Origin: Populus alba
Lineage: Eukaryota; Streptophyta; Magnoliopsida; Malpighiales; Salicaceae
Length of the DNA: 64,000 bases
Assembly (NCBI RefSeq): GCF_005239225.2
Contig: NC_133288.1
Location: forward strand, 13,398,169 to 13,462,168
Direction of reading: 5' to 3'
Positions 9,631 through 63,680 of the stretch are shown one piece after another (within the stretch, counting starts at the first letter, position 1; each line of letters starts with the position of its first letter). Below the pieces are notes generated by a model. The model was not told the origin of the DNA and searched no databases. It saw nothing but the letters and a program-made list of their open reading frames with translations. A program made the position numbers and the translations under genes.

Positions 9631-10095
9631 ATGAACATCACTCTTGAAAAATTGAAAAGGTATTTTCCCGCTATGCCTCCAAATACGATTATAAAAATTT
9701 ATCGTGCTAGATGTGCAAGATTGAGGTTGTTAATTCATCATAGAAATCTTGAAGATATTCGCTGGTTAATTGAAGCAAAGGTTCGATTATCAGGTGAGTC
9801 CTCTAATTCTTTCATTTCACACATGCATGGAATAGGTAAAAGCACTTTTGCAAAGAAACATCGTGCAAAACAATTGAAAGTCTGTCACAAATGTGCTAGA
9901 TGGACTTGTAATTCAACATGTTGTTCTTTAGGAATGGTATCTGTAAACCGTAAAGATAAAATACAATTCATTAAGGATGGCCTGAGGAAAGGGTCTTTAG
10001 ATAATCTTTTGTTGACCCTTGAGACTCATCCTAGTGGAGATGTGCATTGTGCAATTCATGATTTATGGCCACAATTCCATAAAGAACATGCTTGA
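9631..10095 (+). CDS. Basic four-cysteine nucleic-acid-binding-like cargo ORF, copy A
   Basis: 154 residues, start chosen at the ATG shared with copies B and F. Layout: charged N-terminal region (1-60), glycine-rich turn HGIGKSTFAKK (66-76), basic block 75-83, then C85-X2-C88-X4-C93-X3-C97, followed by a conserved acidic/basic tail. It is not gag, pol or a transmembrane env. The order Gly-rich turn, Arg/Lys block, four-Cys finger recalls the small cysteine-rich proteins of carlavirus-like plant RNA viruses, which bind nucleic acid and in some cases suppress silencing; homology is not proven. The stop (TGA) lies about 16 codons earlier than in B. The frame is otherwise open despite decay of the rest of A. 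Confidence 0.6.
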   Translation: MNITLEKLKRYFPAMPPNTIIKIYRARCARLRLLIHHRNLEDIRWLIEAKVRLSGESSNSFISHMHGIGKSTFAKKHRAKQLKVCHKCARWTCNSTCCSLGMVSVNRKDKIQFIKDGLRKGSLDNLLLTLETHPSGDVHCAIHDLWPQFHKEHA

Positions 10096-10303
10096 CTTAG
10101 TCTTAGGAATCTGACTAAAAAAGACCCTACCCATAGAGGGCGTTTAAGCTGTTTTTGGACATAAAATCAAGGAAAGATGTGAGCCACAATCACAACTACC
10201 TGTACATACATCCTTTTTTCAAAATAAATAAATAAAGAGAGAGAGTGTGAGACTACAGTTGTCTTACATATAGGTGGTATGATTGCATTTTCAATTTCTT
10301 ATC

Positions 10304-10374: not shown

Positions 10375-10452
10375 ATGGCAAGTTCCTCAAGTCATCATAT
10401 AAGAAATATTTGTGTTTTTGTGCATCCAGTCTTGGGAAAGAAAAAGAGTTTA
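10375..10452 (+). pseudogene. LOG-like ORF, 5' fragment, copy A
   Basis: Begins MASSSSHHIRNICVF, matching the start of the LOG-like frame in B and F, but is cut after about 26 codons. It is then joined to an inverted scrap of LTR end (AAAAGTGTCGAAGTAAT). Confidence 0.75.
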
Positions 10453-15635: not shown

Positions 15636-16078
15636 AAGGAATGATGAGTTTAAATATAGGGGCCAATTCAACTAAAAAGAGGATTTTCCAAATTCTCAAA
15701 ACTGTGACGATGTGGATGGTGATTTGGACTATATTAAACAAAAATTTATAGTTTTCAAGTTAAAAATGATCTTGAAGCTTATTTGGAGTGGGAAAAGAAG
15801 GTGAATGATATTTTTTAATGCCATAATTATTTTGAGAAGAAAAAAGGTGAAGTTTATGGTGATTGAATTTGTTGATTACATAATTATTTGGTGGGATCAA
15901 CTTGTGACTTCTAGGAGGAGGAACATGGAGAGACCTATTGATTCATAGGATGATATGAAGGCTTTGATGAGAAAACAATTTGTTCCTAATTGTTATTATA
16001 AGAAGCTTTATCATAAACCACATGGTTTGAGTCGATGTTCTAAATTTATGGATAGGAAGGCCACCATGACTAGGTTTC
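15636..16078 (+). pseudogene. Old Ty3/Gypsy gag, left part (interrupted by copy B)
   Basis: Reads EAYLEWEKKV, then KVKFMVIEFVDYIIIWWDQLV, then RPIDS and MKALMRKQFVPNCYY, the classical Retrotrans_gag layout of Gypsy elements of the Tekay/del or Reina type, unrelated to Athila gag. Stops are present. The frame runs into the LTR of copy B at 16079 and resumes at 28275 (MTRF / LNGPNMDIANVVEL), so B inserted into it. Confidence 0.75.
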
Positions 16079-17793
16079 TGATTAGTATTTAAAAGTGCAG
16101 GTTTATCAAGGTTTTATATCATCATTTTGCACTTGAAGTATCAATAACTCCTTAACTAAAGCATGTTTTATAATAACAAGTTTGATATTATAAGATACCT
16201 TAATTTATGGTAAATGCTCATCTTAAATGCAGGCCTATCACATAAATAAAAGGATTGATTGATGAGTTTAAGTATTGAAAGTGAAAGGACAAAGAGATGG
16301 TCAAACTTAGAAAAGAGATGCCGGTGCAGTCCAAACCGGAACATTGCTCGGTAATTGGATCATATCTGGAGCTCTAGATCTCGGATTTAGGTCCATTTTA
16401 TATGGATGGAAAGGTAAGACAAAGGCCTACAACTTTCATGGGAGCCCAAGATTTAAAAAGGTCGTTTTGAAGTCCAAACTGAAGGAACAACAAAGAAGTC
16501 CGAAGCTGTCCTGCAGCCCAGACACTATTTAGTGTTCAGCCCATATCTTGAGTTCTAGAAGTCCAAATGACCTCATCTGTTTTTTGTTGGAAAGCTGAGA
16601 CAATTTCCTAGAACATTCCTGAGGATTTTGGGCAAATTATGATGTTAGCAATGACGTCTTGTTCAGACAAGAAGATAAGGATTGTCACCAAGTCAAGATG
16701 TGGCCACCCACTCATCAATTAATTAACAAACCAATAGTTCCAAATTTTGGCCTATAAAAGGAGGCACTTACCATGTATTGAGGCATCTTGGTTTCCAGAT
16801 CAAGATCATGCTCTTGCTTTCTCTCTTTGTATTGCTTATGTTTTGCTTTCATTAATATCAAGTTTATGCACTTCATTTCCTTTCCTTTACTTAGTTAACT
16901 TCTTTCTCATTTATGTTCTTATCTTGTTCATCTATGTTTCTTTCTTTCATTATGTTTAGCTAAGTTAATTATGTCAAGGTGAAAAGGGTACACTAATGGT
17001 GTAAGAATAAGTATAATATAAACTTAACATGGACCTTAACGTTGGATACTAACATGTTTATATTTTGTTATCTTGTTCACTTTTAATACTTTGCTTGTTA
17101 AATGGTTAATCTAGATTTATGTTGTATAACACTTGGTACAAAAAATACTTGGTACTTTCATAGCCCATACTGTATGGTATAACCGACACTTGAGCTATGA
17201 AAGGAACTTGATTTGTTGTTAACATAAGTTATAATCATGAATGCCTGCCAACATTTACAAGTATTAGCTTTATTCAAATAAGATAACTAATGTAATCATG
17301 TTAATAATTTATAATCTAATTGGAACCTCCTTTATGTGTGGTTTCCAATTGAGTAATAAGAGTTTATACTATACTTGTTTGAAGTACCATTAGTGGATCC
17401 TCTAACCTTGACATTTATTTTTATCGTTGTTTAATCCTTACATTAATCTTTCAACTCAAAGTTCTCATTAATTTCTTCCTTCTCTTCTTTGTTATTGTTA
17501 TTATTATTATTATTATTATATGTTCATAAACTCAAATATATAGGCTGGAAACCTGTGACCCGATCTTTTAGATCATTCTCATGTATAACAACGCCACATA
17601 CTGAGTATTATTATTACTATTACTATTACTATTAATACTATTGTTATTATTATCGTTATTATAATTATTGTTGCGTTGTTATTTATAATTTATACAATTA
17701 ACCTCTCTGTGGTTCGACTCCGGTCTTGCCGGGTTATTTATTACTTCGACACTCCTTCACTTGGGAGAAGACATCAAACTTTTGGTCGTGTCA
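16079..17793 (+). repeat. 5' LTR of copy B
   Basis: 1715 bp, TGATTAGTATTTAAAAGTGC to TTTTGGTCGTGTCA. TATA at 16753 implies a U3 of about 675 bp and an unusually long R/U5 of about 1 kb, containing AT-rich trinucleotide arrays (TTA/TTG) before the terminal 130 bp. Confidence 0.9.
16753..16760 (+). promoter_or_regulatory. LTR promoter TATA box, copy B
   Basis: TATAAAAG within GGCCTATAAAAGGAGGC. Conserved in the LTRs of C (5'), E and F and on the minus strand at 11985. Confidence 0.65.
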
Positions 17794-17799
17794 TGTTTT

Positions 17800-17816
17800 T
17801 GGCGCCGTTGCCGGGG
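17800..17816 (+). promoter_or_regulatory. Primer binding site, tRNA-Asp type, copy B
   Basis: TGGCGCCGTTGCCGGGG is complementary to the 3' end of plant tRNA-Asp(GUC), 6 bp after the LTR end. tRNA-Asp priming is usual for Athila. Confidence 0.85.
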
Positions 17817-18025
17817 AGGTAAATTCTTGTATAAATTATAATATTTAATTTATTTTCTCTTTTCACTTTTCATTTTATCTAACTTTTGTTTTCTTTGTTT
17901 TGTTTTGTTTCTTTTTCTTCTATTTTCTTTTCTTCCTTTTCTTCTCTTTTTACACGTGCATGCGAGTTTGGTCACGTACATTAAGTGGTCGACTTTGTAG
18001 GGTATCCTCATCATTTTCAGAAAAT

Positions 18026-19198
18026 ATGGCCGAAGAAGATAATCAATCGCTTCATAATGAGAATAATGAGAATAACCGTATGAGAACACTTAGAGACCAC
18101 ATGAATCCCACAAGAACAAGTGCACCCTCATGCATAGTTTTCCCTCCAGATGCATCTCATTTTAATTTTAAGCCAGGCATTATTCAACTTTTACCATCTT
18201 TTCATGGTTTAGACCTAGAAAATCCATACTTGCATTTAAGGGAATTTGAGGAGGTCTGTAATACATATAATGACTCAAATTGTAGCATGAACACCATTCG
18301 ATTAAAGCTTTTTCCTTTTTCATTAAAAGATAAAGCTAAAACATGGCTACAAAATTTGAGACCAGGATCCATTCGTGCTTGGGATGAAATGCAACAACAA
18401 TTTTTAAAGAAGTTTTTTCCGTCTCACAGAACAAACTCTTTCAAAAGACAAATCATTACTTTCACTCAAAAACCAGGAGAAACATTTTACCAATATTGAG
18501 ATAGGTATCGAGATTTGCTTAATACTTGCCCTCATCATGATTTTGAAACATGGAGATTGATTTCACATTTTTATGAAGGTTTAACACCTAGAGATAGGCA
18601 AATGGTTGAATTGATGTGCAATGGAACTTTCAAAGATAAAGACCTTAATGAAGCATTTGCTAGCCGAAAATGCTCAAAATTGGGACACCCAGGTACTTAT
18701 GAGGCACCAAGTAAAACTCAAGCTCATACATCTAGTGGAGGTACGCACAACCTTAGGGAAGATCATGACCTCCAAGCCAAGTTTGCATCTTTAGCTAGAA
18801 AAGTTGAAGCACTTGAATTGAAAAAGAATGGTCAATTAAAATCTATTCAAGACATTGTGTGTCAAATCTGTGAAGCCAAGGAACACTCAACAAATTATTG
18901 TCCAACTTTGCCTTCTTTTAGGGAATGCCTCCATGAACAAGCCCATGTTTTAAACAGTTTTCAAAGACCCAACCATAACCCATACTCCCAAACGTATAAC
19001 CCTGGTTGGAGAAATCACCCAAATTTTAGTTGGAAGAGTGATAGTAACAATGCACAAACTTCACAGCCACCATTTCAAGCACACCATAATTTCCAAAATT
19101 CTCATGGATATGCACCTCCTTATGCTCCACCTCCTAGAAGAAATCTTGAGGAAACATTGCATGCATTCATTGAAAAGCAGGAGACAATCAACACTTAA
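18026..19198 (+). pseudogene. gag, copy B (one nonsense codon, one frameshift)
   Basis: Start MAEEDNQSLH at 18026; the upstream Phe-rich extension is leader sequence. Athila gag core: GIIQLLPSFHGL, HLREFEEVCNTY, KLFPFSLKDKAKTWL, GSIRAWDEMQQQF. TGA at 18497 replaces a Trp codon. A deletion near 18657 breaks the frame relative to E. The knuckle CQICEAKEHSTNYC (CX2CX4HX4C) is intact, unlike A and C. The segment ends at TAA 19196 (CAA in copy C). The TGA and TAA are shared with E, so they were present in a common ancestor that still multiplied. Confidence 0.85.
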
Positions 19199-19210
19199 CT
19201 TGCTCAAAGC

Positions 19211-20187
19211 ATGACAGATTTTAAAGATGCTTTTGCAAAATTAACATCGGCTCTCAGTTTTCAAGAGAAAGGTAAGTTTCCATCTCAACCACAACAAAAT
19301 CCAAAAGGGCAATACAATGCAAATGCGAGTAGTTCTGGAAGCCAACACATGGATCAAGTCAAATCAGTCATCACTCTTTTTAGTGGTAAGGTTATTGAAA
19401 AACCCATTCTTGAACCTTATGACAAAGATGATGAGTCTATCTCTGAGGGTAAGGAAAGGGTTGAACCTGAACATTGCAAAGAAAAGGCTGATTCCCCGCC
19501 AGCACTTCCATTTCCTCATATCATGACCAAACAAAGGAAAGTCAATCACAACTCTGAAATCTTTGAAACTTTCAAACAGGTAAGGATCAATATACCTTTG
19601 TTGGATGCTATTAAACAGGTTCCTTCCTATGCTAAATTTTTGAAAGATTTGTGCACTGTGAAGAGAAAACTGAATGTGAAAAAGAAAGCCTTTTTGTGGA
19701 TTTTGTTGTATTGGATACACAACCTGTTAAAGCATGTAATTCAATTCCTGTCATTTTAGGACGTCCATTTCTTGTCACTTCTAATGCATTGATTAATTGT
19801 AGGAATGGACTGATGAAGCTATCATTTGGAAACATGACATTGGAGATGAATATTTTCAACATTTACAAGCAACCTGGAGATGATAATGATTTACAGGAAG
19901 TGGACTTTATTGAAAAATTAGTTCATGATCAATTTCAAACCACTTCTAGTGAAACTGAGATTGATGAATCTGATGATTTGCAAATAATCTACTTTCAGGA
20001 ATCAAAGGCATGCAATTGGAGACCACAAATTGAAGAATTGCCACCACGATCAATTGAGCCCATACCTTCAAGTGTTCAACCACCAAAACTTGAATTAAAG
20101 TCGTTACCATTTAATCTCAAATACTCATTTTTGGGAGAAAATGAAACTTTTCCGGTAATAATCTCTTCCAAACTTAATGCACATTAA
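19211..20187 (+). pseudogene. gag-protease linker with protease active site deleted, copy B
   Basis: 19211-19690 is the linker (conserved [20 protein letters not shown]). At 19691 about 283 bp present in copy C (36578-36860) are missing, removing DLGAS and shifting the frame. The remainder (VLDTQPVKACNSI, ILGRPFLVT, then the RT-proximal linker) continues in another frame to TAA at 20185. E carries the same junction. No protease can be made from this copy. Confidence 0.85.
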
Positions 20188-21243
20188 GAAGGTAAGTTAT
20201 TACAGACTCTGAAAATGCATAAAAATGCATTAGGATGGACCATAGCTGACATAAAAGGAATTAGCCCTTTGATTTGCACACACAGGATTTATTTGGAGAA
20301 ATCCAACGAAGGCTTAATCCTAATATGAAAGAAGTAGTGAAAAATGAAGTCATTAAGCTTCTAGATAATGGAATCATTTATTCTATTTCTGACAGCAAAT
20401 GGGTAAGTCCTACCCAAGTTGTACCCAAAAAGTCTAGAGTCACTGTGATAACGAATGAGAAAAATGAGTTAATTCCAACTAGGACTGTTACTAGTTGGTG
20501 CATGTGCATTGACTATAGGAAACTTAATTCAATGACTAGGAAAGATCATTTCCCTTTACCTTTCATGGACCAAATCCTAGAAAGAGTTGCAGGTCATGAA
20601 TTTTATTGTTTCTTAGATGGCTATTCAGGTTACAATCAAATTGAAATTGCATTGGAAGATCAAGAGAAGACTACTTTCACATGTCCATTTGGTACTTTTG
20701 CATATCGAAGGATGCCTTTTGGATTATGTAATGCACCAGCCACGTTTCAAAGATGCATGCTTAGCATATTCAGTGATATGGTTGAACGTTTTCTTGAAAT
20801 TTTTATGGATGATTTTTCTGTTTTTGGTGATTCATTTGATGATTGTTTGACTAACTTAGAAAAGGTTTTGAGTAGGTGTGAAGACAAGAATCTTGTACTA
20901 AATTGGAAAAAATGTCACTTTATGGTAACAAACGGCATTGTACTTGGTCACATTGTTTCATCGAAAGGAATTGAGGTTGACAAATCTAAAATCGAGTTAA
21001 TTGCCAACTTACCAACACCAAAATCTGTTAAAAATGATAGATCATTCTTAGGACATGCTGGTTTTTACAGAAGGTTCATCAAAGATTTTAGTGTAATATC
21101 TAAGCCCTTGAGTAACCTTCTAACAAAGGATAATATTTTTGAATGGACTGAACATTGTGAAGAAGCCTTTGTTAAACTTAAAAACTTGCTTACTTCTGCT
21201 CCTGTCATTCAACCTCCTGATTGGTCATTACCTTTTGAAATAA
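20188..21243 (+). pseudogene. Reverse transcriptase, copy B (split by hAT insertion)
   Basis: Open from 20274. Contains [44 protein letters not shown] and FMDDFSVFG with both catalytic Asp residues, then the connection domain. A roughly 25-bp deletion near 20300 removes the EENAKPSRE segment. The frame ends at 21251, where the hAT-type element begins. RNase H resumes at 23022. Confidence 0.85.
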
Positions 21244-21270
21244 TGTGTGACCATGGTTGTTAAAAATGCA

Positions 21271-21308
21271 TTTTGACTCGTAAAATCGTACGATTTTACG
21301 AGTCAAAA
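21271..21308. repeat. 38-bp perfect palindrome near the hAT left end
   Basis: TTTTGACTCGTAAAATCG, TA, CGATTTTACGAGTCAAAA. The ACGATTTTACGA core recurs in the right subterminal array. Confidence 0.9.
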
Positions 21309-22812
21309 TACAAAAAACGTGTAGAATCGGGGTTAAGACTCGAAAACCAGTAAAATCAGGTTGACTCGGTCAAACTTGTAGAAAAACCGGTTGACTCATA
21401 AAAAACATTAAAAACGTTACGATTGCCCGAGTTTAGGCAAATGTCCTGCGAAGGCCGAAGTGCAAAATTGCGAATTGTAATCTCTTTTCCACTTAGCCAC
21501 CAAATAAAGTCAGGGCAGTGAGTAGTACTGTAGTAGTCTCTTTTCTTTCCTAAATTCGCAAATCCCACCCGAGTGCCCGACCAACCGACCTCGTCTTCTT
21601 CGTCTTTGTCTTCGTCTTCATCTCCGTCTTCGTCACTGTCTCGCGACTTTGTCACTGTCTCGCGACTTCGTCCCTGTCTCAAGGTCACCCCCTGTGACTT
21701 CATTGTCCCTGTCTCAGTCTCACACAGTCACATGGTGTGACTCACACCCTCCCTGACTCCAGAGTCATCCCCTTCGTCCAATCATCCCATCTCTGTCTCA
21801 CACTCCAGAGCGAGATGAAGGTACGAATTGGGAACCCAAGCTTTGTTTTTTTCTGTCTAATGGTGGTGAATCGGGTGATTAGAGACAAAAAATGATCTGG
21901 GTTTGCTGTGAATCTATGTTCATCTTCTGGGTTTGCTGTGAATCGGTGATTAGAGATAAAAAATGATTGGGAATCGAATGCCTTTTGTTGTAAAGATGTA
22001 CCTATTTGGAATGCCTTTTGAGCTTGAATGTTCAATTGAATCAATTGTATTATCAGTGATGTGGATGGAAAATAAATTGAATTATCTTTTTGCCCATTGA
22101 TCAGTTCTGCTGAATGTATTTTGTGAATGTATTGACGATTAAGGAGTCAGGGAGGGTGTGAGTCAATTGTATTATCAATGTTCATCTGCTGAATGTATTT
22201 TGTGAAAATAAATCTATGTTCATTTTGATCGAAGACTGCGTAGATAGATTAAGGAAGACTTATTGACGATTGATGATAATGGAATGGAAGACTTATTCTG
22301 TGAAAGAAACAGACTTCGAATTGATAAAGCTAAAGGAATTAAAAATGGTTGTAAACTTGTAATAATGATTCGTTTTAAGACTTATTAGTTTTAGCATGGA
22401 TGATTGGATGGTAAAAAAATGGAGGTTGCTTATTCTGTGAACTCTCAAGTTTATTTTCAGAATTGCTAATTAAAAAACAATTATTGGAGCAAAAAATGCT
22501 GAGTAATCAAAATTACTAAATAGAAAAACTATGTTTAAATAAAAGTATTTTATAAAAAAACAATTCACGTTTAAACTATCATGATTTACCCATCTAGGAT
22601 TACAGTTCCAATAAAAAAAATGATGCTGAGTAAACTAGCAAGTTTTGAAAGGCAATGACCTAAAGTGACTCTTCTTTGTTAACATGTGAATGTATTTTTA
22701 TAGGATACAACATGCATATTTGTAAATTGTAATTCTTAAACAAATGATTGAATTACTTTTATTTGAATTATGTAATTTAATATGTTTGGATATTTGTATT
22801 GTTTATAATATT

Positions 22813-22952
22813 TTACTTGCGATTTTACGATTTTAGTTTAAAAAAATTTACTTCCGATTTTACGATTTTAGTTTAAAAAAATTTACTTCCGATTTTACGA
22901 TTTTTAGTTAAAAAATTTTACTTCTGATTTTACGATTTTACGATTCGAGTTT
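22813..22952 (+). repeat. Four 35-bp subterminal repeats at the hAT right end
   Basis: Units start at 22813, 22848, 22883 and 22918, each TTACTT(G/C/T)CGATTTTACGATTTT-like followed by an A-rich spacer. Such arrays are typical transposase-binding sites in hAT elements; binding is inferred. Confidence 0.85.
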
Positions 22953-23021
22953 ACGAGTCGATTTTAAATTGAATGTTCCGTGTCGTGTCAAAAAAGCGTT
23001 TTTGACAACCTTGTGTGTGAC

Positions 23022-24660
23022 GCTAGTGATTATGCCGTGGGTGCTGTCTTGGGACAAAGAAAAGATAAGAAGCCTTATGTGATTTACTATGCAAGTAAAA
23101 CTTTAAATAGTGCTGAAATGAATTACACCACCACTGAAAAAAAATTACTTGCAGTAGTATTTGCTTGTGATAAATTCAGATCTTATCTTGTTGACTCACC
23201 TGTTGTTGTTTTTAGTGATCATGCAGCATTGAAATATCTTCTTTCTAAGAAAGATTCTAAGGCTAGATTGGTGCGGTGGATTTTGTTACTTCAAGAATTT
23301 GATATCACAATCAAAGACAAGAAAGGCACCGAAAATGTTGTCGCAGATCATTTGTCAAGATTGACAACATATTCAAAATTTGACATCACACCAATCAATG
23401 ACTACTTTCCTGATGAATCTTTATTTTCTATTTCTACGATGCCTTGGTTTGCTAATATTATTAATTTTCTTGTCTCAGGACAATTGCCAGCTCATTTGAG
23501 TACCCAGGACAAAAGAAAGTTCTTGAACGAAGTGAAGAGCTTTTATTGGGATGACCCATATTTATTTAAATATTGTCCTGATCAAATATTTCAAAGACGC
23601 ATTCCTGACAATGAGGTAAGCAGTGTCATTAGATTTTGTCATTCTGAGGTATGTGGTCATTTCTCGTCAAAAAAGACAACTGCAAAAATCTTACAAAGTG
23701 GATTTTACTGGCCCACCATGTTCAAGGACTCACATGCATTCTGCAAGACTTGTGAAAATTGTCAAAAGTTGGGATCTATTTCAAAACGTCACATGATGCC
23801 TTTAATGCCTTGTCATTGAGATCTTTGACTGTTGGGGTATAGATTTCATGGGTCCATTTCCTCCATCTTTTGGTTTCGTGTACATATTAGTCACGGTAGA
23901 TTATGTTTCAAAATGGATAGAGGCAATTCCAAGTCGAAAAAATGATCACAAAATAGTGATAAAGTTTTTAAACGACAATATTTTGAGTCAATTTGGAATC
24001 CCTCGAGCCATGATAAGTGATGGTGGAACACATTTCTGCAACAATCCATTTGATTCTTTAATGAAGAAATATGGAATCACATACAAAGTTGCCAGCCCTT
24101 ATCACCCTCAAACAAGTGGACAAGTAGACCTTGCTAATAGGGAGATCAAACAGATCTTGGAGAAAATAGTGAACCCTAATCGGAAAGACTGGTCTTTAAG
24201 ACTTAATGATGCACTTTGGGCTTATCGAACTGCATATAAAACATCATTAAGTATGTCATCTTATAGACTAGTCTATGGAAAACCTTGTCACTTGCCTGTG
24301 GAAATTGAACATAAAGCTTATTGGGCTATTAAAGCTTTCAATTCAAACATTGATGGTGCTAGTCAGCTGCGAAAATTGCAAATAAATGAGCTTGAGGAAA
24401 TTAGAAATGATGCATATGACAATTCAAGAATTCATAAAGCAAGAATCAAAGAGTTTCATGACAAGAAAATACTGAGAAAAACATTCAATGTTGGTCAAAA
24501 AGTCTTGCTTTATAATTCTCGACTCCATTTATTTCTAGTAAAACTAAGATCAAGATGGAGCGGTCCTTTTATTGTGAAACATGTGTATCCATATGGGGCC
24601 TGTGATATTGAGAATCCAAAGAATGGCAATGTTTTCAAGTTTCTCTCACCCGGGTCAAAT
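23022..24660 (+). pseudogene. RNase H and integrase, copy B (one frameshift)
   Basis: RNase H resumes in frame at [18 protein letters not shown]. It contains [13 protein letters not shown] and VADHLSRL, then the integrase HHCC finger. The frame breaks at about 23805 (same lesion as A) and continues 23848-24669 with [22 protein letters not shown] and REIKQILEK. The C-terminus is cut at the CAAG/TTTCTCTC junction (24639/24640), where A has the 143-bp candidate intron. Confidence 0.85.
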
Positions 24661-24795
24661 GGCGGATAACGGTACTCTGTGACTCTTCAGTCGGTTCTTT
24701 CAATTTCCCATGATAACTGATATTTGTGTATATAATTGTGCAATTCTCTGCTCTTTCTTCTTTCTTTGAATCTCCCATCAAATTCTCATTTGAAA

Positions 24796-25308
24796 ATGGA
24801 CACCACTCTTGAAAAAATGAAAAAGTATTTTCCCGCTCTGCCTCAGAATGCGATTACAAAAATTTACCGTGCTAAGTGTGAAAGATTGAGGTTGTTAATG
24901 AACCATGGAATTCCTGAAGATATTCGTTGGCTGATTGAAGCAAAGGTCCAATTATCAGGTGAGTCCTCCAATTCTTTCATTTCACACATGCCTGGAACAG
25001 GTAAAAGCACTTTTGCAAAGAAACGTCGTGCAAAACGACTGAAAGTCTGTCACAGATGTGCCAGATGGACTTGTAATGCGACATGTCGTTCTTTAGGAAT
25101 GGTATCTGTAAACCGTGAAGATAAAATACAATTCATTAAGGATGGCCTGAGTAAAGGGTCTTTAGATAATCTTTTGTTAACCCTTGAGACGCATCCTAGT
25201 GGAGATGTGCATCGTGTAATTCATGATTTATGGCCACAATTCCATAAAGAACATGATCGACTTAGTCTTGGGAATCTGACTAAAAAGACCCTGTTTGCTA
25301 GTTTTTAA
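24796..25308 (+). CDS. Basic four-cysteine nucleic-acid-binding-like cargo ORF, copy B
   Basis: 170 residues, fully open. Start at the ATG conserved in A and F (MDTTLEKMKKYFP). Residues 62-72 HMPGTGKSTF contain a P-loop-like GTGKST string. Residues 74-83 are a basic block (AKKRRAKRLK). C85, C88, C93 and C97 form CX2CX4CX3C (CHRCARWTCNATC). No signal peptide or membrane segment. It lies 156 bp after the splice-like junction and 273 bp before LOG. Related by eye to carlavirus-type Cys-rich RNA-binding proteins (four-Cys finger after an Arg block), but the finger spacing is shorter. Function is unassigned; nucleic-acid binding is the best guess. The Walker-like string lacks the surrounding fold of an ATPase. 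Confidence 0.65.
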   Translation: MDTTLEKMKKYFPALPQNAITKIYRAKCERLRLLMNHGIPEDIRWLIEAKVQLSGESSNSFISHMPGTGKSTFAKKRRAKRLKVCHRCARWTCNATCRSLGMVSVNREDKIQFIKDGLSKGSLDNLLLTLETHPSGDVHRVIHDLWPQFHKEHDRLSLGNLTKKTLFASF

Positions 25309-25509
25309 GAAAACTGGATAGAAAGCCTATCCCCGACCCATAGAGGGCATTTAAGCCGTTCTTGGACTTAAAACCAAGGGAAGATGTGAGCCACAATCAC
25401 AACTACTTGTACATACATGCTTTTTCAAAATAAATAAATAAAGAGAAAGAGTGTGAGACTACAGCTGGCCTACATATAGGTGGTATGATTGCATTTTCAC
25501 TTTTTCATC

Positions 25510-25516
25510 TATAAAT
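25510..25516 (+). promoter_or_regulatory. TATA-like box upstream of LOG ORF, copy B
   Basis: TATAAAT 72 bp upstream of the LOG ATG (25582), followed by CTTCTCTTCC. Conserved in A and F, so it could be an internal promoter or part of a captured 5' region. Confidence 0.45.
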
Positions 25517-25581
25517 TCTTCTCTTCCTTCCCTTCATTTCTACTCATCCCATACATTCATCAAATATAGAAGTGTGTAGAA

Positions 25582-26234
25582 ATGGCAGGTTCCTCAAGTC
25601 ATCATATAAGAAATATTTGTGTTTTCGGTGGATTCAGCCCTGGGAAAGAAAAAGAGTTTTTAGAATCAGCAAATCATCTTGGTCACGTACTAGTTGAGAG
25701 AAAGATTCATTTAGTGTATGGGGGAGGCAGCCTTTGGTTAATGGGAGGTGTGTCAATGGCTGCATTTTTAGGAGGCAGTCAAGTTTTGGGGGTTGTCCCC
25801 AAAGCTTTAGCAAATGGAGACTCATTGGAAAAACAATTGGAGAGGAACTACAGGTCCCAATAATGTCTGATCGACTGAATGCCATGTTTAGCCATGCTGA
25901 TGCCTACATTGCCTTACCAGGTGGTCTGGGCACATTGGAAGAGATCTTTCATATTTCATCTTGGGCCCAACTGCACATTCACCATAAACCTATAGGTTTG
26001 TTAAATGTTAATGGTTTTTATGATAACTTGTTGTCTTTCCTTGATCAAGCTGTGGAACAGGAATTTCTAACATCTTCAGCACGACAAATCATAATCTCTA
26101 CTGCTACTGCTGAACAATTGATTGACCAACTACAATCTTTCATCCCTGTCATTGATCCTTGCATGAGTCTCCTAGATTGGTCAGCTAAGGAAAGCCGTAA
26201 AAAGCTTAGATTAGATTTGAGCCTTCATCTATGA
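25582..26234 (+). pseudogene. LONELY GUY (LOG)-like cytokinin riboside 5'-monophosphate phosphoribohydrolase, copy B (frameshift)
   Basis: LOG enzymes release active cytokinin base from its riboside monophosphate in the cytosol. Residues 1-80 (MAGSSSHHIRNICVFGG...VVPKALANGD) and the rest, in another frame from about 25822, together span the normal LOG length of about 217 codons. One missing A (GACTCATTGG against GACATCATTGG in F) causes the shift. Motifs: VYGGGSLWLMGG (Trp replaces the usual Gly), [52 protein letters not shown]. The Arg and the PGGxGTxxE active-site residues remain. No introns, although plant LOG genes have several, so capture from mRNA is likely. CVFGG replaces CVFCG. Confidence 0.85.
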
Positions 26235-27476
26235 AACCTTGTGTCTTTTGATTTTATTAATAGCATATTATTTTGTTTTGTTACTTCTTATATTTGTTTA
26301 AGTGTGTTTCAGGTTTATCATTGTTCGTTGTTTCAGGTGATGTCTTCTATACTCTATCTTTCTACCTTAGGACGTTGAGGACAATGTCTCGTTTTGGTTG
26401 GGGGAGAGGGTAGTAGTTTTTTTTTTTAAAAAAAAAAAACTAACCAGCTAACTGTTTTTGTTTTTAAAAAACCATTTGGCAAAACTGTTATTACTAGGAT
26501 GGCAGAGTAAAGAGGAATTATTCTTGAGACGCATCTTAGTAAAAATTTTCTAATGGTTATTTGCAATATTCATAACAAGGCCTATTAGAATACTTCTTGA
26601 AATATTCAAGTTTACAAACTCTCGCATTGTTATCACTTGATTCTACTCATTTACTCATTTAACAAGTATTATTAAACCTTTATTTTCACACACACACTTT
26701 AACATATGATTGTGGGTTACACATTGGATTATTACATTATGTTCTTTTATTGAAGGTAACAACTAAGGGAAAGGGATAGTATATAATTTGCAAAAAAAAA
26801 AAAATATTGATAATATTGATGATAATAAAAACGTAGATAAGTTTGGTTTCGTAGCCTCTCTAACCTAAGCAATTAAGCCCGAAGGGGTGTTTTAACACCT
26901 AATACCCTAAAGTCAACTGACTTGGGAGCTATTGGCCCAAAGCTTGTTACATGGGTTAAGGAGAAAAGCTTAAGGGAATCAAACATTGCACTATCTATGT
27001 ATTAGTATCTGCAACCCGAGTTGTTAAGCTCGTAGGGGTGTCTCAACACCTAATGCCCTAAGATCAACTGGTCTGGGAGTCATTAGCCTAAAACACGTTA
27101 CATGGGTTAAAGATACATTGTGTTTTAAGTTGTATGTGTATATAAATATATATAAAAAAAAAGAGAAAAAAAAAGTAATAATAATAATAATCCCAACCCA
27201 AGGAAGTTCACCTTAAACATTTGAACATAATATTGTTTTCTTCCAATAAAAGCCCCATCATTTATGTTTTCATATATTGAGCACATAAAAAGAAGGTTTA
27301 TTAATATCTTGTTTAAGAAGTATGAAGTAGTAATATAAATTTAATGAGAGTTTGTTTATCTGGATAGATTAATAAAAGTTGAATGATGAATGCCTTGCTT
27401 TGTGATACTTGCAAATTTTTTCTCTATTTTAACGCTTTAGATTACTAAGGACTAGTAATAAACTGGTTGGGGGGTG
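26235..27476 (+). other. 3' noncoding internal region of copy B
   Basis: No coding frame. Contains GTTGAGGACAAT followed by the purine-rich run GGTTGGGGGAGAGGG (26396-26410), A-tracts, the 151-bp tandem repeat (26850-27150), and ends with the polypurine tract GGTTGGGGGGTG (27465-27476) directly before the 3' LTR. Confidence 0.75.
26850..27150 (+). repeat. Diverged 151-bp tandem repeat with hairpins
   Basis: Two units, aligned from TTAAGCCCGAAGG (26873) and TTAAGCTCGTAGG (27024). Each holds a small hairpin (GGTGTTTTAACACC or GGTGTCTCAACACC) and ends TTACATGGGTTAA. The pair is kept in C, F and the minus-strand copy, although the two units differ from each other. Confidence 0.8.
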
Positions 27477-28269
27477 TGATTAGTACTTAAAAGTGCATGT
27501 TTATCAAGGTTTTATGTCATCATTTTGCACTTGAAGTATCAATAACTCCTTAACTAAAGCATGTTTTATAATAACAAGTTTGATACTATAAGATACCTTA
27601 ATTTATGGTAAATGCTCATCTTAAATGCAGGCCTATCATATAAATAAAAGGAACTTGATTTGTTGTTAACATAAGTTATAATCATGAATGCCTGCCAACA
27701 TTTACAAGTATTAGCTTTATTCGAATAAGATAACTAATGTAATCATGTTAATAATTTATAATCTAATTGGAACCTCCTTTATGTGTGGTTTCCAATTGAA
27801 TAATAAGAGTTTATACTATACTTGTTTGAAGTACCATTAGTGGATCCTCTAACCTTGACATTTATTTTTATCGTTGTTTAATCCTTACATTAATCTTTCA
27901 ACTCAAAGTTTTCATTAATTTCTTCCTTCTCTTCTTTATTGTTGTTGTTGTTGTTGTTGTTATTGTTGTTGTTGTTGTTATTCTTATTATTATTATATGT
28001 TCATAAACTCAATATATAGGCTGGAAACCTGTGACCCGATCTTTTAGATCATTCTCAGGTATAACAATGCCACGTACTGAGTATTATTATTATTATTACT
28101 ATTACTAGTACTATTATTATTATTATTATCGTTATTATTGTTATTGTTGCGCTGTTATTTATAATTTATACAATTAACCTCTCTGTGGTTCGACCCCGGT
28201 CTTGCCGGGTTATTTATTACTTCGACACTCCTGTACTTGGGAGAAGACATCAAGCTTTTGGTCGTGTCA
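27477..28269 (+). repeat. 3' LTR of copy B with internal deletion
   Basis: 793 bp, same ends as the 5' LTR but about 920 bp shorter. AAAGGA at the breakpoint joins AATAAAAGGA to ACTTGATTTG, sites separated by about 0.92 kb in the 5' LTR, so the TATA region is lost. AAAGGA is present at both parental sites (microhomology). Confidence 0.9.
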
Positions 28270-28700
28270 GTTTCTTAATGGGCCAAATATGGATATTGCT
28301 AATGTAGTAGAGTTATAGCATTATATGGATTTGGAGGACTTGGTTCATATGACGGCGAGGATGGAGAGATAAATTAAAAGGAGCGCTAACTCATGACCAC
28401 TATTCAATTTGGCTTCATCTTCCTTTGCTTGAAGGATGAATGTGAAGACAGATGATGTTGCTCAATCTAAGCCCTTTATGCATTCTAAGGTTGAACCATT
28501 TAAGGCTAAAAAGGAGATTTATATGGATGCTGAAGGTAAACTCAAAACTTAACCTACTCATAACTGTGATATAAAATGTCTTAGGTGTTTAGGGGTTAGA
28601 AACTGATGTGAACCTTATGATCACGTGGTCACGCAACCTATAATAAAATTGAAAATCAACCCAAGAAAGTTGAATACCAGGTTTGAAACCCTGACCTAGA
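28270..28700 (+). pseudogene. Old Ty3/Gypsy gag, right part
   Basis: Continues the gag interrupted at 16078: FLNGPNMDIANVVEL, stop, HYMDLEDLVHMTARMERQIKR, and near 28570 a decayed zinc-knuckle segment (CDIKCLRCLGV). Several stops. No pol follows. Confidence 0.7.
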
Positions 28701-38436: not shown

Positions 38437-40081
38437 TGTTGCGATGTCGCGGTCGCACAAATTAATTACCCTAGCTTAAAACACAACACACAAGATAGTA
38501 TAGAGCAAGCAAGGGGTCGATCCCACGAGGAAGTTTGAAGTCAGATTTTTATGTTGTACGTTATGTAATTGGGGGGGATTTGATTTATGATGATCTAAAA
38601 TATAGAAGAAATTAAACTAGCAAACAAAATCAATTGAAACTAAAATATATCAAGAAAACAAACCTTGGTTGCAAGCACACGTCCACCAACGGAAATTAGA
38701 ACCGATCCTTGAAACGAAACTCCAGTTTATATTATGAATTTTATCTTTTCTTAATATTGGTTAATTAACGGATCCGCCGTATAACTAGCCCTAACCAACA
38801 AACAATCACAGTGTCCGCACTAATGATTTAATCCAATGGCAGCCTTAAGATCTAGATAAATTCATTAATCTTAACAAACAAGTTGTCAATTTGTGTTGCT
38901 ATGATCGAATGTTCTCCCTAAGTTTAATAACGTAGTTCCGCTACAATTATCAAGCTTAGTTGCTTCACAAGTTTATATACCACAACTCCGGTTTTGATAT
39001 CAAACTTAGCAATAGATTGTTCACAATAATAACTTAGAGTCCGCTCTAGCAATTAAGATAAACAATCATAAGAAATATGCATAGGAAAACAATCATACTC
39101 ATTCATAACATAAACTGAAAATAAAAGGAAGAATAAATCTCACGGTTCTTGAAATCCGAAGGTTTGTTGTGTCCTTGCAACCAAGAAAACGAGCTTAGCC
39201 TTGCATATCTATTGAACAACTACTCCTAAAGATTAAAGAATACATAATTTCTGATTTGTAGAGAGGAGAGTTTGTGTTTCCTCCTTCTTCTTTCTCTTCC
39301 TCTTCTTCCTTCTACTCACCCTCTATTTATACACAAATTGTAAGTAAGAAAATATCAAAGCTCAAGTGTGAACATCAATAGATGGTGGTAGTGTGAAGGC
39401 TGCTGGCTGCTGGGTTGAGGTTGGTGGCTGCCTTGAGGTTGGTGGCTGCCTTCCTTGAGGTTGGTGGCTGCCTTCCTTGACCTTCTAGAATATTTACTAG
39501 AGGAGCTAAATTGCTGGTCGGTTTGGATGCTTCTGGATGAAATTTTGATTCGTTTCTTCACGCAACCTGCTTGCTGGCAGAATTCAGCTGTCATCTTTGA
39601 AAAATCATATCTCCCTCATATGACATCGTTTTTGGCTGAAATTTGGAGCGTTTATAGATCTTTGAGTAAGGAATCCAAAAAAATTGAGTTTTCATCAATT
39701 GGACTTCTGAAGCTCCAGATATTGAATTTTTAATGGGCAAAGGTCAACATTGGCAGACTGCGAGATTTGACTTTGAAGGATGTGATTTCCATGATTTTTC
39801 TCTTTTTATTTTTCTTGCATTACATTTCCAAAAAGGTATGGATGTTAGCTTTTTAATGCCACTGGAATCACTTCATTTCGATCTCTGGAACTCACGCTCT
39901 GCACAAAATACCGACTGAACGTCAAATCTGCCAATTACCTCCAATTTACTCCTTTTTGCATCTTTCATCCAAAAATGCCTTCAAAACATAAAACAAAGAA
40001 TATCAAGGCATTTTATATAAATAACATATGCAAAACACTAGTTAAATGCGGGTGAAACTATCAAATAATATGGTTACATCA
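38437..40081 (-). repeat. 3' LTR of element D
   Basis: 1645 bp; unrelated in sequence to the LTRs of copies A-F. Contains GGTTGGTGGCTGCCTT-type 18-bp repeats near 39410-39480, one unit fewer than the other LTR. Confidence 0.9.
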
Positions 40082-40098
40082 AATACCCCCACACTTAG
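40082..40098 (-). promoter_or_regulatory. Polypurine tract of element D
   Basis: On the minus strand GCTAAGTGTGGGGGTATT lies immediately before the LTR start, preceded by CTCGAGGACGAGCAAG, a sequence context typical of Athila elements. Confidence 0.8.
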
Positions 40099-41598: not shown

Positions 41599-41711
41599 TC
41601 ATTCTTCATAGATTGGTTCAGCTAACTCTGCAGAAGCGGTGAGTTCTGCCGTCCAACCTTCATAGAAAGGTTTCAAACGATGCCCATTGACTTTGAGTAT
41701 GTTGTTCGTTT

Positions 41712-44795: not shown

Positions 44796-44812
44796 CCCCG
44801 GCAACGGCGCCA
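44796..44812 (-). promoter_or_regulatory. Primer binding site (tRNA-Asp type), element D
   Basis: Minus strand TGGCGCCGTTGCCGGGG, perfect to the tRNA-Asp(GUC) 3' end complement, 5 bp after the LTR. Confidence 0.9.
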
Positions 44813-44817
44813 AAATT

Positions 44818-46485: not shown

Positions 46486-47813
46486 ACGCTAGTGATTATG
46501 CCGTGGGTGCTGTCTTGGGACAAAGAAAAGATAAGAAACCTTATGTGATTTACTATGCAAGTAAAACTTTAAATAGTGCTCAAATGAATTACACCACCAC
46601 TGAAAAAGAATTACTTGCAGTAGTATTTGCTTGTGATAAATTCAGATCTTATCTTGTTGGCTCACCTGTTGTTGTTTTTAGTGATCATGCAGCATTGAAA
46701 TATCTTCTTTCTAAGAAAGATTCTAAGGCTAGATTGGTGCGGTGGATTTTGTTACTTCAAGAATTTGATATCACAATCAAAGACAAGAAAGGCACCGAAA
46801 ATGTTGTTGCAGATCATTTGTCAAGATTGACAACAGATTCGACATCTGACATCACACCAACCGATGACTACTTTCCCGATGAATCTTTATTTTCCATTTC
46901 TACGATGCCTTGGTTTGCTAATATTGTTAATTTTCATGTTTCAGGACAATTGCCAGCTCATTGGAGTACCCAAGACAAAAGAAAGTTCTTGAACAAAGTG
47001 AAGAACTTTTATTGGGATGACCCTTATTTATTCAAATATTGTCCTGATCAAATATTTCGAAGATGCATTCCTGACAATGAGGTAAGTAGTGTTATTAAAT
47101 TTTGTCATTCTGAGGCATGTGGGGGTCATTTCTCATCAAGAAAGACAATTGCAAAAATCTTACAAAGTGGATTTTATTGGCCCACCATGTTCAAAGACTC
47201 ACATGCATTCTGCAAGACTTGTGAAAATTGTCAAAAGTTGGGATCTATTTCAAAACGTCACATGATGCCTTTAAATCCTATTCTTGTCATTGAGATCTTT
47301 GACTGTTGGGGTATAGATTTCATGGGTCCATTTCCTCCATCATTTGGTTTCGTGTACATATTAGTCGCAGTAGATTATGTTTCAAAATGGATACAGGCAA
47401 TTCCAAGTCGAAACAATGATCACAAAACAGTGATAAAGTTTTTGAAAGACAATATTTTGAGTCGATTTGGAATCCCTCGAGCCATAATAAGTGATGGTGG
47501 AACACATTTCTGCAACAAGCCATTTGCTTCTTTAATGAAGAAATATGGAATCACACACAAAGTTGCCACCCCTTATCACCCTCAGACAAGTGGACAAGTA
47601 GAGCTTGCTAATAGGGAGATCAAACAAATCTTGGAGAAAATAGTGAACCCTAATCGGAAAGACTGGTCTTTAAGACTTAATGATGCACTTTGGGCTTATC
47701 GAACTGCATATAAAACACCATTAGGTATGTCACCTTATAGACTAGTCTATGAAAAACCTTGTCACTTGCCTGTGGAAATTGAACATAAAGCTTATTGGGC
47801 TATTATCCTATAG
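46486..47813 (+). pseudogene. RNase H and integrase, copy C (C-terminus fused to LOG remnant)
   Basis: Open from 46503 for 436 codons. RNase [44 protein letters not shown]. Integrase: HHCC finger (CHSEACGGH...CKTCENC), [18 protein letters not shown] and [10 protein letters not shown] with DD35E spacing. After HKAYWAI the frame runs into LOG-derived sequence and stops (47813), so the integrase C-terminal domain is missing. The junction is identical in copy E. Confidence 0.88.
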
Positions 47814-48052
47814 GTTTGTTAAATGTTAATGGTTTTTATGATAAGTTGTTGTCTTTCCATGATCAAGTTGTGGAACAGGAATTTCTAACATCTTCGGCAC
47901 GACAAATCATAATCTCTGCTGCTACTGCTGAACAATTGATTGACCAACTACAATCTTTCATCCCTGTCATTGATCCTTGCATGAGTTGCCTAGATTGGTC
48001 AGTTAAGGAAAGCCGTAAAAAGCTTAGATTAGATTTGAGCCTTCATCTGTGA
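47795..48052 (+). pseudogene. LOG C-terminal remnant, copy C
   Basis: [20 protein letters not shown]... through CLDWSVKESRKK to the normal LOG stop, about 80 codons. It overlaps the end of integrase in another frame. The catalytic PGGxGTxxE is absent. Confidence 0.85.
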
Positions 48053-53114: not shown

Positions 53115-53677
53115 ATGGACAGCACTCTTGAAAAGTTGAAAAGGTATTTTCCCGCTCTGCCTCAAAATGCGATTACAAAATTTACCGTGCTAGGTGTGAA
53201 AGATTACGGTTGTTAATGAATCATGGAATTCCTGAAGATATTCGCTGGCTAATTTGAAGCAAAGGTCCGATTACAAGGTGAGTCCTCAATTCTTTCATTT
53301 CACACATGCCTGGAACAGGTAAAAAGCACTTTTGCAAAGAAACGTCGTGCAAAACGACTGAAAGTCTGTCACAGATGTGCCAGATGGAGCTTGTAATGCG
53401 ACATGTCGTTCTTTAGGAATGGTATCTGTAAACCGTGAAGATAAGATACAATTCATTAAAGGATGGCCTGAGTAAGGGGTCTTTAGATAATCTTTTATTG
53501 ACCCTTGAGACGCATCCTAGTGGAGATGTGCATCGTGTAATTCATGACTTATGGCCACAATTCCATAAAGAACATGATCGACTTAGTCTTGGGAATCTGA
53601 CTAAAAAAAGACCCTGTTTGCCAGTTTTTAAGAAAACTGGATGGGAAGCCTATCCTCGACCCATAGAGGGCGTTTAA
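53115..53677 (+). pseudogene. Basic four-cysteine cargo ORF, copy F
   Basis: Same protein as 24796-25308 by content (start MDSTLEKLKRYFPALP; CHRCARW; SLDNLLLTLETHPSG), broken by about six single-base indels. The C-terminal frame 53435-53677 runs past the B stop and ends PRPIEGV. Given local indel density the breaks may be assembly errors. Confidence 0.65.
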
Positions 53678-53911: not shown

Positions 53912-54563
53912 ATGGCAGGTTCCTCAAGTCATCATATAAGAAATATTTGTGTTTTCGGTGGATCCAGTTCTGGGAAAGAAAAAGAGTTTTTAGAATCAGC
54001 AAATCATCTGGCCGGGTACTAGCTGAGAGAAAGATTCATTTAGTGTATGGGGGAGGTAGCCTTGGGTTAATGGAGGTGTGTCAATGGCTGCATTTTTAGG
54101 AGGCAGTCAAGTTTTGGGGGTTGTCCCCAAAGCTTTAGCAAATGGGGACATCATTGGAAAAACAATTGGAGAAGAACTACAGGTCCCAACAATGTCTGAC
54201 CGACTGAATACCATGTTTAACCATGCTGATGCTTCATTGCCTTACCAGGTGGTCTGGGCACATTGGAAGAGATCTTTTCATATTTCATCTTGGGCCCAAC
54301 TGCACATTCACCATAAACCCATAGGTTTGTTAAATGTTAATGGTTTTTATGATAAGTTGCTGTCTTTCCTTGATCAAGCTGTGGAACAGGAATTTCTAAC
54401 ATCTTCGGCACGACGAATCATAATCTCTGCTGCTACTGCTGAACAATTGATTGACCAACTACAATCTTTCATCCCTGTCATTGATCCCTGCATGAGTCGT
54501 CTAGATTGGTCAACTAAGGAAAGCCGTAAAAAGCTTAGATTAGATTTGAGCCTTCATCTGTGA
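53912..54563 (+). pseudogene. LOG-like phosphoribohydrolase, copy F
   Basis: About 217 codons with single-base indels near 54010, 54073 and 54233. Sequence is closer to a normal LOG than B: CVFGGSSSGKEKEF, VYGGGSLGLM (Gly kept where B has Trp), GDIIGKTIGEELQVP, SDRLNTMFNHADA, then LPGGLGTLEE readable across a frameshift (54239-54270), and [20 protein letters not shown]. No introns. The catalytic Arg and Glu positions are present. Whether it is intact in the plant depends on resequencing. Confidence 0.8.
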
Positions 54564-61395: not shown

Positions 61396-63441
61396 ATGAC
61401 TAGAAAAGATCATTTCCCTTTACCTTTCATGGACCAAATCCTAGAAAGAGTTGCAGGTCATGAATTTTATTGTTTCCTAGATGGCTATTCAGGTTACAAT
61501 CAAATTGAAATTGCATTGGAAGATCAAGAGAAGACTACTTTCACATGTCCATTTGGTACTTTTGCATATCGAAGGATGCCTTTTGGATTATGTAATGCAC
61601 CAGCCACGTTTCAAAGATGCATGCTTAGCATATTCAGTGATATGGTTGAACATTTTCTTGAAATTTTTATGGATGATTTTTATGTTTTTGGTGTTTCATT
61701 TGATGATTGTTTGACTAACTTAGAAAAGGTTTTGAGTAGGTGTGAAGAGAAGAATCTTGTATTGAATTGGGAAAAATATCACTTTATGGTAACAAACGGC
61801 ATTGTACTTGGTCACATTGTTTCATCGAAAGGAATTGAGGTTGACAAATCTAAAATCGAGTTAATTGCCAACTTACCAACACCAAAATCTGTTAAAGATG
61901 TTAGATCATTCTTAGGACATGCTGGTTTTTACAGAAGGTTCATCAAAGATTTTAGTGTAATATCTAAGCCCTTGAGTAACCTTCTAACAAAGGATAATAT
62001 TTTTGAATGGACTAAACATTGTGAAGAAGCCTTTATTAAACTTAAAAACTTGCTTACTTCTGCTCCTGTCATTCAACCTCCTGATTGGTCATTACCTTTT
62101 GAAATAATGTATGATGCTAGTGATTATGCCGTGGGTGCTGTCTTGGGACAAAGAAAAGATAAGAAGCCTTATGTGATTTACTATGCAAGTAAAACTTTAA
62201 ATAGTGCTCAAATGAATTACACCACCACTAAAAAAGAATTACTTGCAGTAGTATTTGCTTGTGATAAATTCAGATCTTATCTTGTTGGCTCACCTGTTGT
62301 TGTTTTTAGTGAGCATGCAGCATTGAAATATCTTCTTTCTAAGAAAGATTCTAAGGCTAGATTGGTGCGGTGGATTTTGTTACTTCAAGAATTTGATATC
62401 ACAATCAAAGACAAGAAAGGCACCGAAAATGTTGTTGCAGATCATTTGTCAAGATTGACAACAGATTCGACATCTGACATCACACCAATCGATGACTACT
62501 TTCCCGATGAATCTTTATTTTCCATTTCTACGATGCCTTGGTTTGCTAATATTGTTAATTTTCTTGTTTCAGGACAATTGCCAGCTCATTGGAGTACCCA
62601 AGACAAAAGAAAGTTCTTGAACAAAGTGAAGAACTTTTATTGGGATGACCCTTATTTATTCAAATATTGTCCTGATCAAATATTTCGAAGATGCATTCCT
62701 GACAATGAGGTAAGTAGTGTCATTAAATTTTGTCATTCTGAGGCATGTGGGGGTCATTTCTCATCAAGAAAGACAACTGCAAAAATCTTACAAAGTGGAT
62801 TTTATTGGCCCACCATGTTCAAAGACTCACATGCATTCTGCAAGACTTGTGAAAATTTTCAAAAGTTGGGATCTATTTCAAAACGTCACATGATGCCTTT
62901 AAATCCTATTCTTGTCATTGAGATCTTTGACTGTTGGGGTATAGATTTCATGGGTCCATTTCCTCCATCATTTGGTTTCGTGTACATATTAGTCACGGTA
63001 GATTATGTTTCAAAATGGATACAGGCAATTCCAAGTCGAAACAATGATCACAAAACAGTGATAAAGTTTTTGAAAGACAATATTTTGAGTCGATTTGGAA
63101 TCCCTCGAGCCATAATAAGTGATGGTGGAACACATTTCTGCAACAAGCCATTTGCTTCTTTAATGAAGAAATATGGAATCACACACAAAGTTGCCACCCC
63201 TTATCACCCTCAGACAAGTGGACAAGTAGAGCTTGCTAATAGGGAGATCAAACAAATCTTGGAGAAAATAGTGAACCCTAATCGGAAAGACTGGTCTTTA
63301 AGACTTAATGATGCACTTTGGGCTTATCGAACTGCATATAAAACATCATTAGGTATGTCACCTTATAGACTAGTCTATGGAAAACCTTGTCACTTACCTG
63401 TGGAAATTGAACATAAAGCTTATTGGGCTATTATCCTATAG
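61396..63441 (+). CDS. RT-RNase H-integrase, copy E (open frame, defective residues)
   Basis: 681 codons open, the longest pol frame here. RT: FLDGYSG (Asp 29), FMDDFYVFG (DD 93-94). RNase [10 protein letters not shown] (D240); two changes at conserved sites, TTTKKELL (Glu 279 to Lys) and FSEHAAL (Asp 306 to Glu). Integrase: HHCC finger (H447, H454, C482, C485), D517, D576, E612 (DD35E). The last residues AIIL come from the fusion to LOG sequence, so the C-terminal domain is missing. Upstream RT is cut off by the stop at 61369. Expressed activity is unlikely. Confidence 0.85.
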
Positions 63442-63680
63442 GTTTGTTAAATGTTAATGGTTTTTATGATAAGTTGTTGTCTTTCCATGATCAAGCTGTG
63501 GAACAGGAATTTCTAACATCTTCGGCACGACAAATCATAATCTCTGCTGCTACTGCTGAACAATTGATTGACCAACTACAATCTTTCATCCCTGTCATTG
63601 ATCCTTGCATGAGTCGCCTAGATTGGTCAGTTAAGGAAAGCCGTAAAAAGCTTAGATTAGATTTGAGCCTTCATCTGTGA
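63423..63680 (+). pseudogene. LOG C-terminal remnant, copy E
   Basis: Same remnant and same fusion point as copy C (47795), from [15 protein letters not shown] to the LOG stop. Without the N-terminal two thirds it cannot be an enzyme. Confidence 0.85.

Follow-up and report, generated by a model that had tools for sequence, protein, structure and literature searches.

Why should a retrotransposon of Populus alba carry a frame that resembles the LOG genes of plants, and what might the frame do there? The question is raised by the window (the whole stretch of 64,000 nucleotides analysed here). In an earlier note, its LOG frame was described as an intron-free, cytokinin-activating gene, captured from spliced mRNA by an Athila-type retrotransposon family and multiplied with it. 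That inventory was right about the homology to LOG and missed a second extra ORF, which specifies a carlavirus-type nucleic-acid-binding protein (CRP). Our main reading, to which we give a probability of roughly 0.6, is that an Athila-type element holds an old accessory cassette of CRP and LOG, which is under selection, has its own promoters and would alter the host. The pair is real and apparently old; its function is putative.

The LOG frame of the window belongs to an LTR retrotransposon, here called element B (16079-28269; Table 1); alignment of its two LTRs shows 27 differences over about 778 positions. No introns interrupt the element copy, as had been claimed, but it is not one open frame in B, where two ORFs are listed (25582-26231) with a frame shift near residue 84, and the copy in F is broken. 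None of the five LOG copies of the window is intact; all are broken or cut.

Table 1. Features of element B and of the other element copies in the window (window positions)
Feature	Position	Strand	Remark
Target-site duplication GTTTC, left, element B	16074..16078	.	same five bases at 28270-28274
5' LTR, element B	16079..17793	+	
Primer-binding site TGGCGCCGTTGCCGGGGA, element B	17800..17817	+	presumably of tRNA-Asp type
gag ORF, PF03732, element B	17900..18499	+	broken further on
Reverse transcriptase ORF, element B	20274..21263	+	
RNase H and integrase zinc-binding domain, element B	22980..23819	+	
Integrase core (rve), element B	23848..24669	+	
CRP frame, carlavirus-type nucleic-acid-binding protein, element B	24796..25340	+	listed ORF 24736-25308; frame change near end
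TATAAAT, possible internal core promoter, element B	25510..25516	+	first base 72 nt 5' of LOG ATG, then CT-rich stretch
LOG-like frame, element B	25582..26234	+	one frame change near residue 84
3' LTR, element B	27477..28269	+	internally deleted
Target-site duplication GTTTC, right, element B	28270..28274	.	
CRP copy, element F	53115..53663	+	broken
LOG copy, element F	53912..54560	+	broken in several places
CRP copy, element A	9631..10131	+	
5' end of LOG, element A	10375..10419	+	first 15 residues
LOG residues 135-217 joined to cut integrase, C/D	47801..48049	+	
LOG residues 135-217 joined to cut integrase, E	63429..63677	+	junction as in C

The copies in A, B, C, E and F were found where they had been placed, but C and E do not count separately; moreover, C and D are one element divided by a nested LTR element, C being the 3' half, with a matching empty site in E at 62106. 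The integrase-to-LOG junction is identical in C and E (47806/47807 and 63434/63435). A search of the whole genome for this junction, with up to 2 mismatches, returned these two places only, and between the stretches there is 98.8% identity; hence C and E are not independent evidence. The deletion form probably arose by one deletion and a subsequent local duplication. Separate transpositions of a cargo-less form were rejected as its source, since the junction occurs at only two genome places. The nested LTR element, in reverse orientation at 38437-46480, splits one element in two. Its LTR matches (38434-40081 and 44815-46480) are 98.4% alike, its target duplication is GTATG, and it contains a 905-residue gag-protease ORF, the end of which matches integrase residues 182-255. 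A run of 500 N (50602-51101) is an assembly gap between the 3' LTR of C and element F.

The lineage of the host element was assigned from its domains. Pfam matches of ORF 61396-63441, which is cut in the integrase, were RVT_1, two RT_RNaseH models, H2C2 and rve only, and rve was the only match of ORF 23848-24669, in which the integrase end is included. The order of reverse transcriptase, RNase H and integrase, with neither a chromodomain nor a second (archaeal-type) RNase H, is that of Athila by the Ty3/Gypsy lineage criteria in the consulted part of PMC6317226. The extra sense-strand ORFs between pol and the 3' LTR (CRP and LOG, 24796-26234; 3' LTR from 27477) are a further Athila trait. The Athila ORF-1 domain PF03078 was absent from the Pfam matches of the scanned window ORFs. 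Its absence is usual, the domain being present in 16% of Athila elements. We regard the host element as a non-chromovirus Ty3/Gypsy element that is Athila-like by its domain content. Domain order and extra-ORF position agree with the family proposed earlier.

Genome-wide, a 35-base probe for the LOG active site (up to 3 mismatches) matched 934 places and a CRP probe 769, against 0 for each reversed control. On contig C1, an exact LOG site lies 0.75-0.89 kb downstream of 27 of the 47 exact CRP sites on the same strand (chance expectation 0.0008 per site), a lower bound in which exact LOG sites alone were counted. CRP matches were present in 67/71 LOG-bearing sequences (70 loci and the window), and each of the first 30 loci had CRP and a piece of integrase or RT/RNase H on the same stretch as LOG. 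In 139 of 150 scored places (of 1492 candidates), no stop interrupted LOG across 185 or more of the 195 query residues. On the strength of the probe counts, the C1 spacing and the 30 loci, LOG is part of the element family and was multiplied with it, which upholds the earlier proposal on both points; a chance neighbour of a single element was rejected, given 934 probe matches versus 0.

Some loci depart from this layout. In L009, L010, L017 and L026, the RNase H/zinc-binding sequence runs directly into the C-terminal part of CRP, and the integrase core and the start of CRP are missing; L026 has an open 217-codon LOG frame. Three further LOG copies (G000:C8:17246080-17246634, G000:C22:10352-10906, and G000:C11:409833-410387) match AtLOG3 at 51-53% over residues 2-186. 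They contain stops, and their open-frame length is unlike that of the main family; perhaps they represent a second element subfamily.

The assignment to LOG was borne out by profile searches. PF03641 matched positions 25734-26234 of the element B frame (E 2.3e-33), and the best solved structures were those of Arabidopsis At2g37210 and At5g11950 (AtLOG3 and AtLOG8). An open 217-residue poplar protein (P0127) scored 130 bits with PF03641 (cut-off 27) and 165 bits with TIGR00730 (cut-off 96), so that homology extends across most of the length. Its score with the NCBI equivalog for cytokinin phosphoribohydrolase was 112 bits against a cut-off of 300, a weak indication, the model having been run without ordinary plant LOGs. 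Structure models were poor (pLDDT 36.5 for LOG, 51.6 for CRP). In an IMG/VR scan, LOG gave one 49% locus (L071).

The catalytic residues and the base pocket have fared differently. In CgLOG, Arg99 and Glu122 are proposed to be catalytic, and Met96, His97, Lys100, Glu121, Glu125, and Trp129 form the adenine/prenyl sites; with the exception of S19, crucial residues changed to alanine leave almost no activity, the mutants not being individually named in the available text (PMC4979012). The eight positions read MHRKEEEW in 26/26 ordinary plant LOGs, a set that includes P0276, so that all six pocket residues are constant there. Among the 47 ungapped P. alba copies, 44 read MSRLEEHW, one reads MSRLKEHW, and the two others have C or F at H97. 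Thus, H97, K100, and E125 are replaced by S, L, and H in 45/47 copies, M96 and W129 are kept, E121 is kept in 46/47, and the catalytic Arg and Glu appear in every eight-position pattern printed for these copies. The PGGxGTxxE motif and a stop-free frame were found together in 41/47 copies, and with ATG and Arg as well in 40/47. Not every member of the wider element-type clade (n=31) complies: the motif occurs in 27, Arg in 21, and Glu in 30, with the catalytic Arg missing in 10 and the catalytic Glu in the Citrus member. Both Lys100 and Glu125 are retained only in the two Xanthoceras rows and the Acer row of the 31. Because three published adenine/prenyl-pocket residues have changed in poplar, the cytokinin production suggested in the earlier note appears doubtful for the poplar element LOG. 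That the poplar pocket was altered and then kept constant, beside retained catalytic residues, speaks for a new substrate or for less cytokinin activity.

Where the LOG came from was approached through its relatives. The search was made without the 217-residue poplar copies; among the 120 listed of 2070 matches, element-type LOGs bore the names of Xanthoceras, Acer, Reevesia, Orobanche, and Citrus. These genera belong to different plant orders. The label "element-type" was set from identity and annotation before the tree was made, and the element context was seen for poplar members only. In a LOG tree of 59 rows, built without P0276 and the long-branch row P0325, 31 element-type LOGs fall on one side of a branch (100/97). 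Twenty-five ordinary plant LOGs, including one from a moss, group together (89/92), and three bacterial rows lie outside; the program warned of long branches, and the exact root is unsure. P0276 was rejected as an element-type LOG on its place among ordinary LOGs in an earlier tree. Two predicted proteins, P0277 of Orobanche gracilis and P0270 of Acer yangbiense, each contain CRP sequence upstream of LOG. Of 118 new proteins, these two were matched by a profile built from 35 element CRPs (E 1.1e-73 and E 6.2e-56, respectively). In P0277, Pfam recovered both of the CRP families; in the truncated Acer protein, it recovered neither. These fused proteins are database gene models, known from predicted proteins alone. 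In the Xanthoceras predicted proteins P0241-P0244 and P0246, two LOG copies or pieces stand in tandem, which may be gene-model joins or local duplications.

Ordinary poplar LOG genes were listed at 18 places at >=63% identity. The 10 fetched match in separate pieces, in line with the statement that plant LOG genes contain introns. As the element LOG matches the exons of these 10 (of the 18 listed) at just 29-60%, no recent donor is in sight, and capture from any of the 10 was rejected. The proposed capture from a host LOG mRNA is accordingly not traceable, and the element clade lies outside the sampled ordinary plant LOGs. With the CRP and LOG pair in the Acer and Orobanche proteins and a single LOG clade, CRP-LOG is probably an old module and not a poplar capture.

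CRP occupies the ORF between integrase and LOG (24736-25308). Two viral families, Viral_NABP (PF05515, 32.1 bits, cut-off 23) and Carla_C4 (PF01623, 28.4 bits, cut-off 20.9), matched it above their curated cut-offs. The match of P0002 was modest (28.7 and 26.0 bits versus 23 and 20.9), and P0086 was slightly below the PF01623 cut-off. Among 35 CRP relatives picked for diversity, Carla_C4 matched 34 and Viral_NABP 32 at E<=1; any other family matched 4 at most. According to the consulted part of PMC12172455, viral CRPs are silencing suppressors and pathogenicity determinants, and that of chrysanthemum virus B is a transcription factor that induces hyperplasia. CRP might instead be non-viral: convergence may have given a basic zinc-finger protein of the element its likeness to carlavirus proteins, or viruses may have taken it from plants or elements. 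We consider such an origin possible and do not prefer it. A match that covers only residues 36-116 of 182, the basic and C4 part, suits it, as does an IMG/VR scan in which 54 stretches fitted the CRP pattern and no relative was found, plant RNA viruses perhaps being scarce there. It is opposed by the two above-threshold families in the window ORF and by their recurrence, to the near exclusion of others, among the relatives. No report of a carlavirus-type protein in a retrotransposon was found in one open-licence literature collection.

Selection was estimated from 47 LOG and 47 CRP copies out of 71 sequences, those ungapped over >=93% of the query; gapped or partial copies were dropped. Pooled dN/dS among these element copies, an analysis that the earlier note had proposed, was 0.29 for LOG and 0.37 for CRP, whereas neutral simulations in which mutations followed the spectrum of the noncoding flanks gave means of 0.88-0.97 and a lowest 5% bound of 0.63. 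Shared variants of LOG comprised 32 synonymous and 31 nonsynonymous changes versus 26 and 64 among singletons (p=0.007); for CRP, the counts were 37 and 45 versus 28 and 94 (p=0.0012). Expressed per site, the nonsynonymous/synonymous ratio was about 0.75 for singletons and about 0.29 for shared variants in LOG, and about 0.99 and about 0.36 in CRP. Divergence per site between copies was 0.027 for LOG, 0.059 for the 3' flank, 0.050 for the 5' flank, and 0.047 for CRP. The 70 loci were ranked by similarity to the LOG query, which lowers dN and stop counts and favours intact LOG; the contrast between singletons and shared variants is less affected. Stop-free copies numbered 41/47 for LOG (59-61% expected under neutral simulation) and 29/47 for CRP (47-52% expected). 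Since the 18/47 CRP copies with a stop are little under the 48-53% of neutral simulations, frame intactness supports LOG and supports CRP weakly. In addition, CRP dN/dS climbs to 0.47-0.52 among the closest and the most distant pairs. The intended controls, one pair each, were uninformative (dN/dS 0.61 for integrase, 0.47 for RT/RNase H). By these patterns, purifying selection is well supported for LOG and moderately supported for CRP.

Putative promoters were sought upstream of both frames. TATAAAT lies exactly 72 nt 5' of the LOG ATG in 41/47 copies and within 120 nt in 46/47, compared with 0.03 occurrences per mononucleotide-shuffled copy; a CT-rich stretch follows it in the real copies. 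For CRP, TATATAA at about -67 was present in 24/59 copies only. Internal promoters for LOG and CRP may be proposed, and because the copies are young relatives of one another, conservation of the TATA motif is by itself no proof of a promoter.

Taken as a whole, the evidence makes it most probable that CRP and LOG form a selected pair of accessory genes by which the host cell is altered. The cassette, with CRP followed by a LOG-derived phosphoribohydrolase, sits between integrase and the 3' LTR, and each gene would have a TATA-type promoter of its own. The first protein may, in analogy to its viral counterparts, act in the nucleus or on RNA, as a weak suppressor of silencing or as an activator of transcription. 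With its altered base pocket, the LOG-like enzyme would cleave a nucleoside monophosphate. Jointly, they might render the host cell more permissive, or maintain its division, during element expression. A bolder version, in which an ancient mobile CRP and LOG module had its pocket rebuilt for a non-cytokinin substrate and serves as a virulence-like toolkit against the host, is offered tentatively.

A simpler enzyme function, in which the element LOG would turn cytokinin riboside monophosphates into active cytokinin and drive division, seems unlikely. It must accommodate S, L, and H at three positions of the adenine/prenyl pocket that are invariant in ordinary LOGs, the near inactivity of alanine mutants at crucial residues and, for what it weighs, the low equivalog score, even though family scores are well over cut-off, Arg and Glu are kept, and a viral CRP can induce hyperplasia by itself (PMC12172455, in the part consulted). 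More improbable is a captured gene without function that a successful element carried along as it multiplied. Gene transduction is known for plant LTR elements (PMC13317346, in part), every LOG copy of the window is broken or cut, many CRP copies hold a stop, and one deletion form lacks CRP and most of LOG; that form, however, consists of two local copies only, and a passive gene would not be expected to show dN/dS far under neutral simulation, the shared versus singleton contrast, less divergence than its flanks, and LOG frames that are open in relatives from other plants. We therefore retain the selected, host-altering accessory pair as the preferred reading.

Extra ORFs of plant LTR elements are mostly without recognisable relatives or evidence of use, as far as the consulted parts of two sources go (PMC7264820; PMC11728184). 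CRP and LOG are two recognisable proteins that occur together in hundreds of copies, with signs of selection and recurrence in other plants. The role of extra ORFs for an element thereby becomes testable with two assays, one of the enzyme and one of silencing. Element copies can inflate the LOG counts of plant genomes. Steinbauerova et al. (2011) reportedly described two Athila-like elements with LOGL4 similarity. The LOG cargo, of which the earlier note knew no description, is already in print, since a YgdH (LOG) domain was reported in the Gypsy consensus of two Citrus species and, without a filter, of P. trichocarpa, in a passage that cites Steinbauerova et al., 2011 (PMC9289625). The CRP-LOG pairing, the signs of selection and the altered active site appear to be new; for the CRP partner, shared clade, selection, and pocket change, no report was found in one open-licence literature collection, subscription papers being mostly outside it.

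Among known systems, the Gypsy elements of Citrus sinensis, C. clementina, and Populus trichocarpa, the last of the same genus, resemble the window family in their extra LOG-domain ORF; the consulted part of their description does not include a CRP partner, selection, pocket change, internal promoter, or shared clade (PMC9289625). Gypsy elements of Phalaenopsis with an AlkB-type RNA demethylase likewise keep an extra enzyme ORF over several replication rounds, but that enzyme is a different one, it was tested in vitro, and CRP is unmentioned in the same part (PMC9289625). The plant LOGs AtLOG3 (2a33) and AtLOG8 (1ydh) are homologous to the element LOG over nearly the whole length (200 and 173 bits) and have the PGGxGTxxE motif and the catalytic Arg and Glu in common with it. 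Distinct from plant LOGs, the element LOG is intronless, falls in a separate clade and has H97, K100, and E125 replaced in poplar. The element CRP shares a basic stretch and a C4 zinc-finger region with carlavirus CRPs (PF05515 and PF01623). Unlike them, it has conserved N- and C-terminal parts beyond the match and resides in a retrotransposon, not in an RNA virus.
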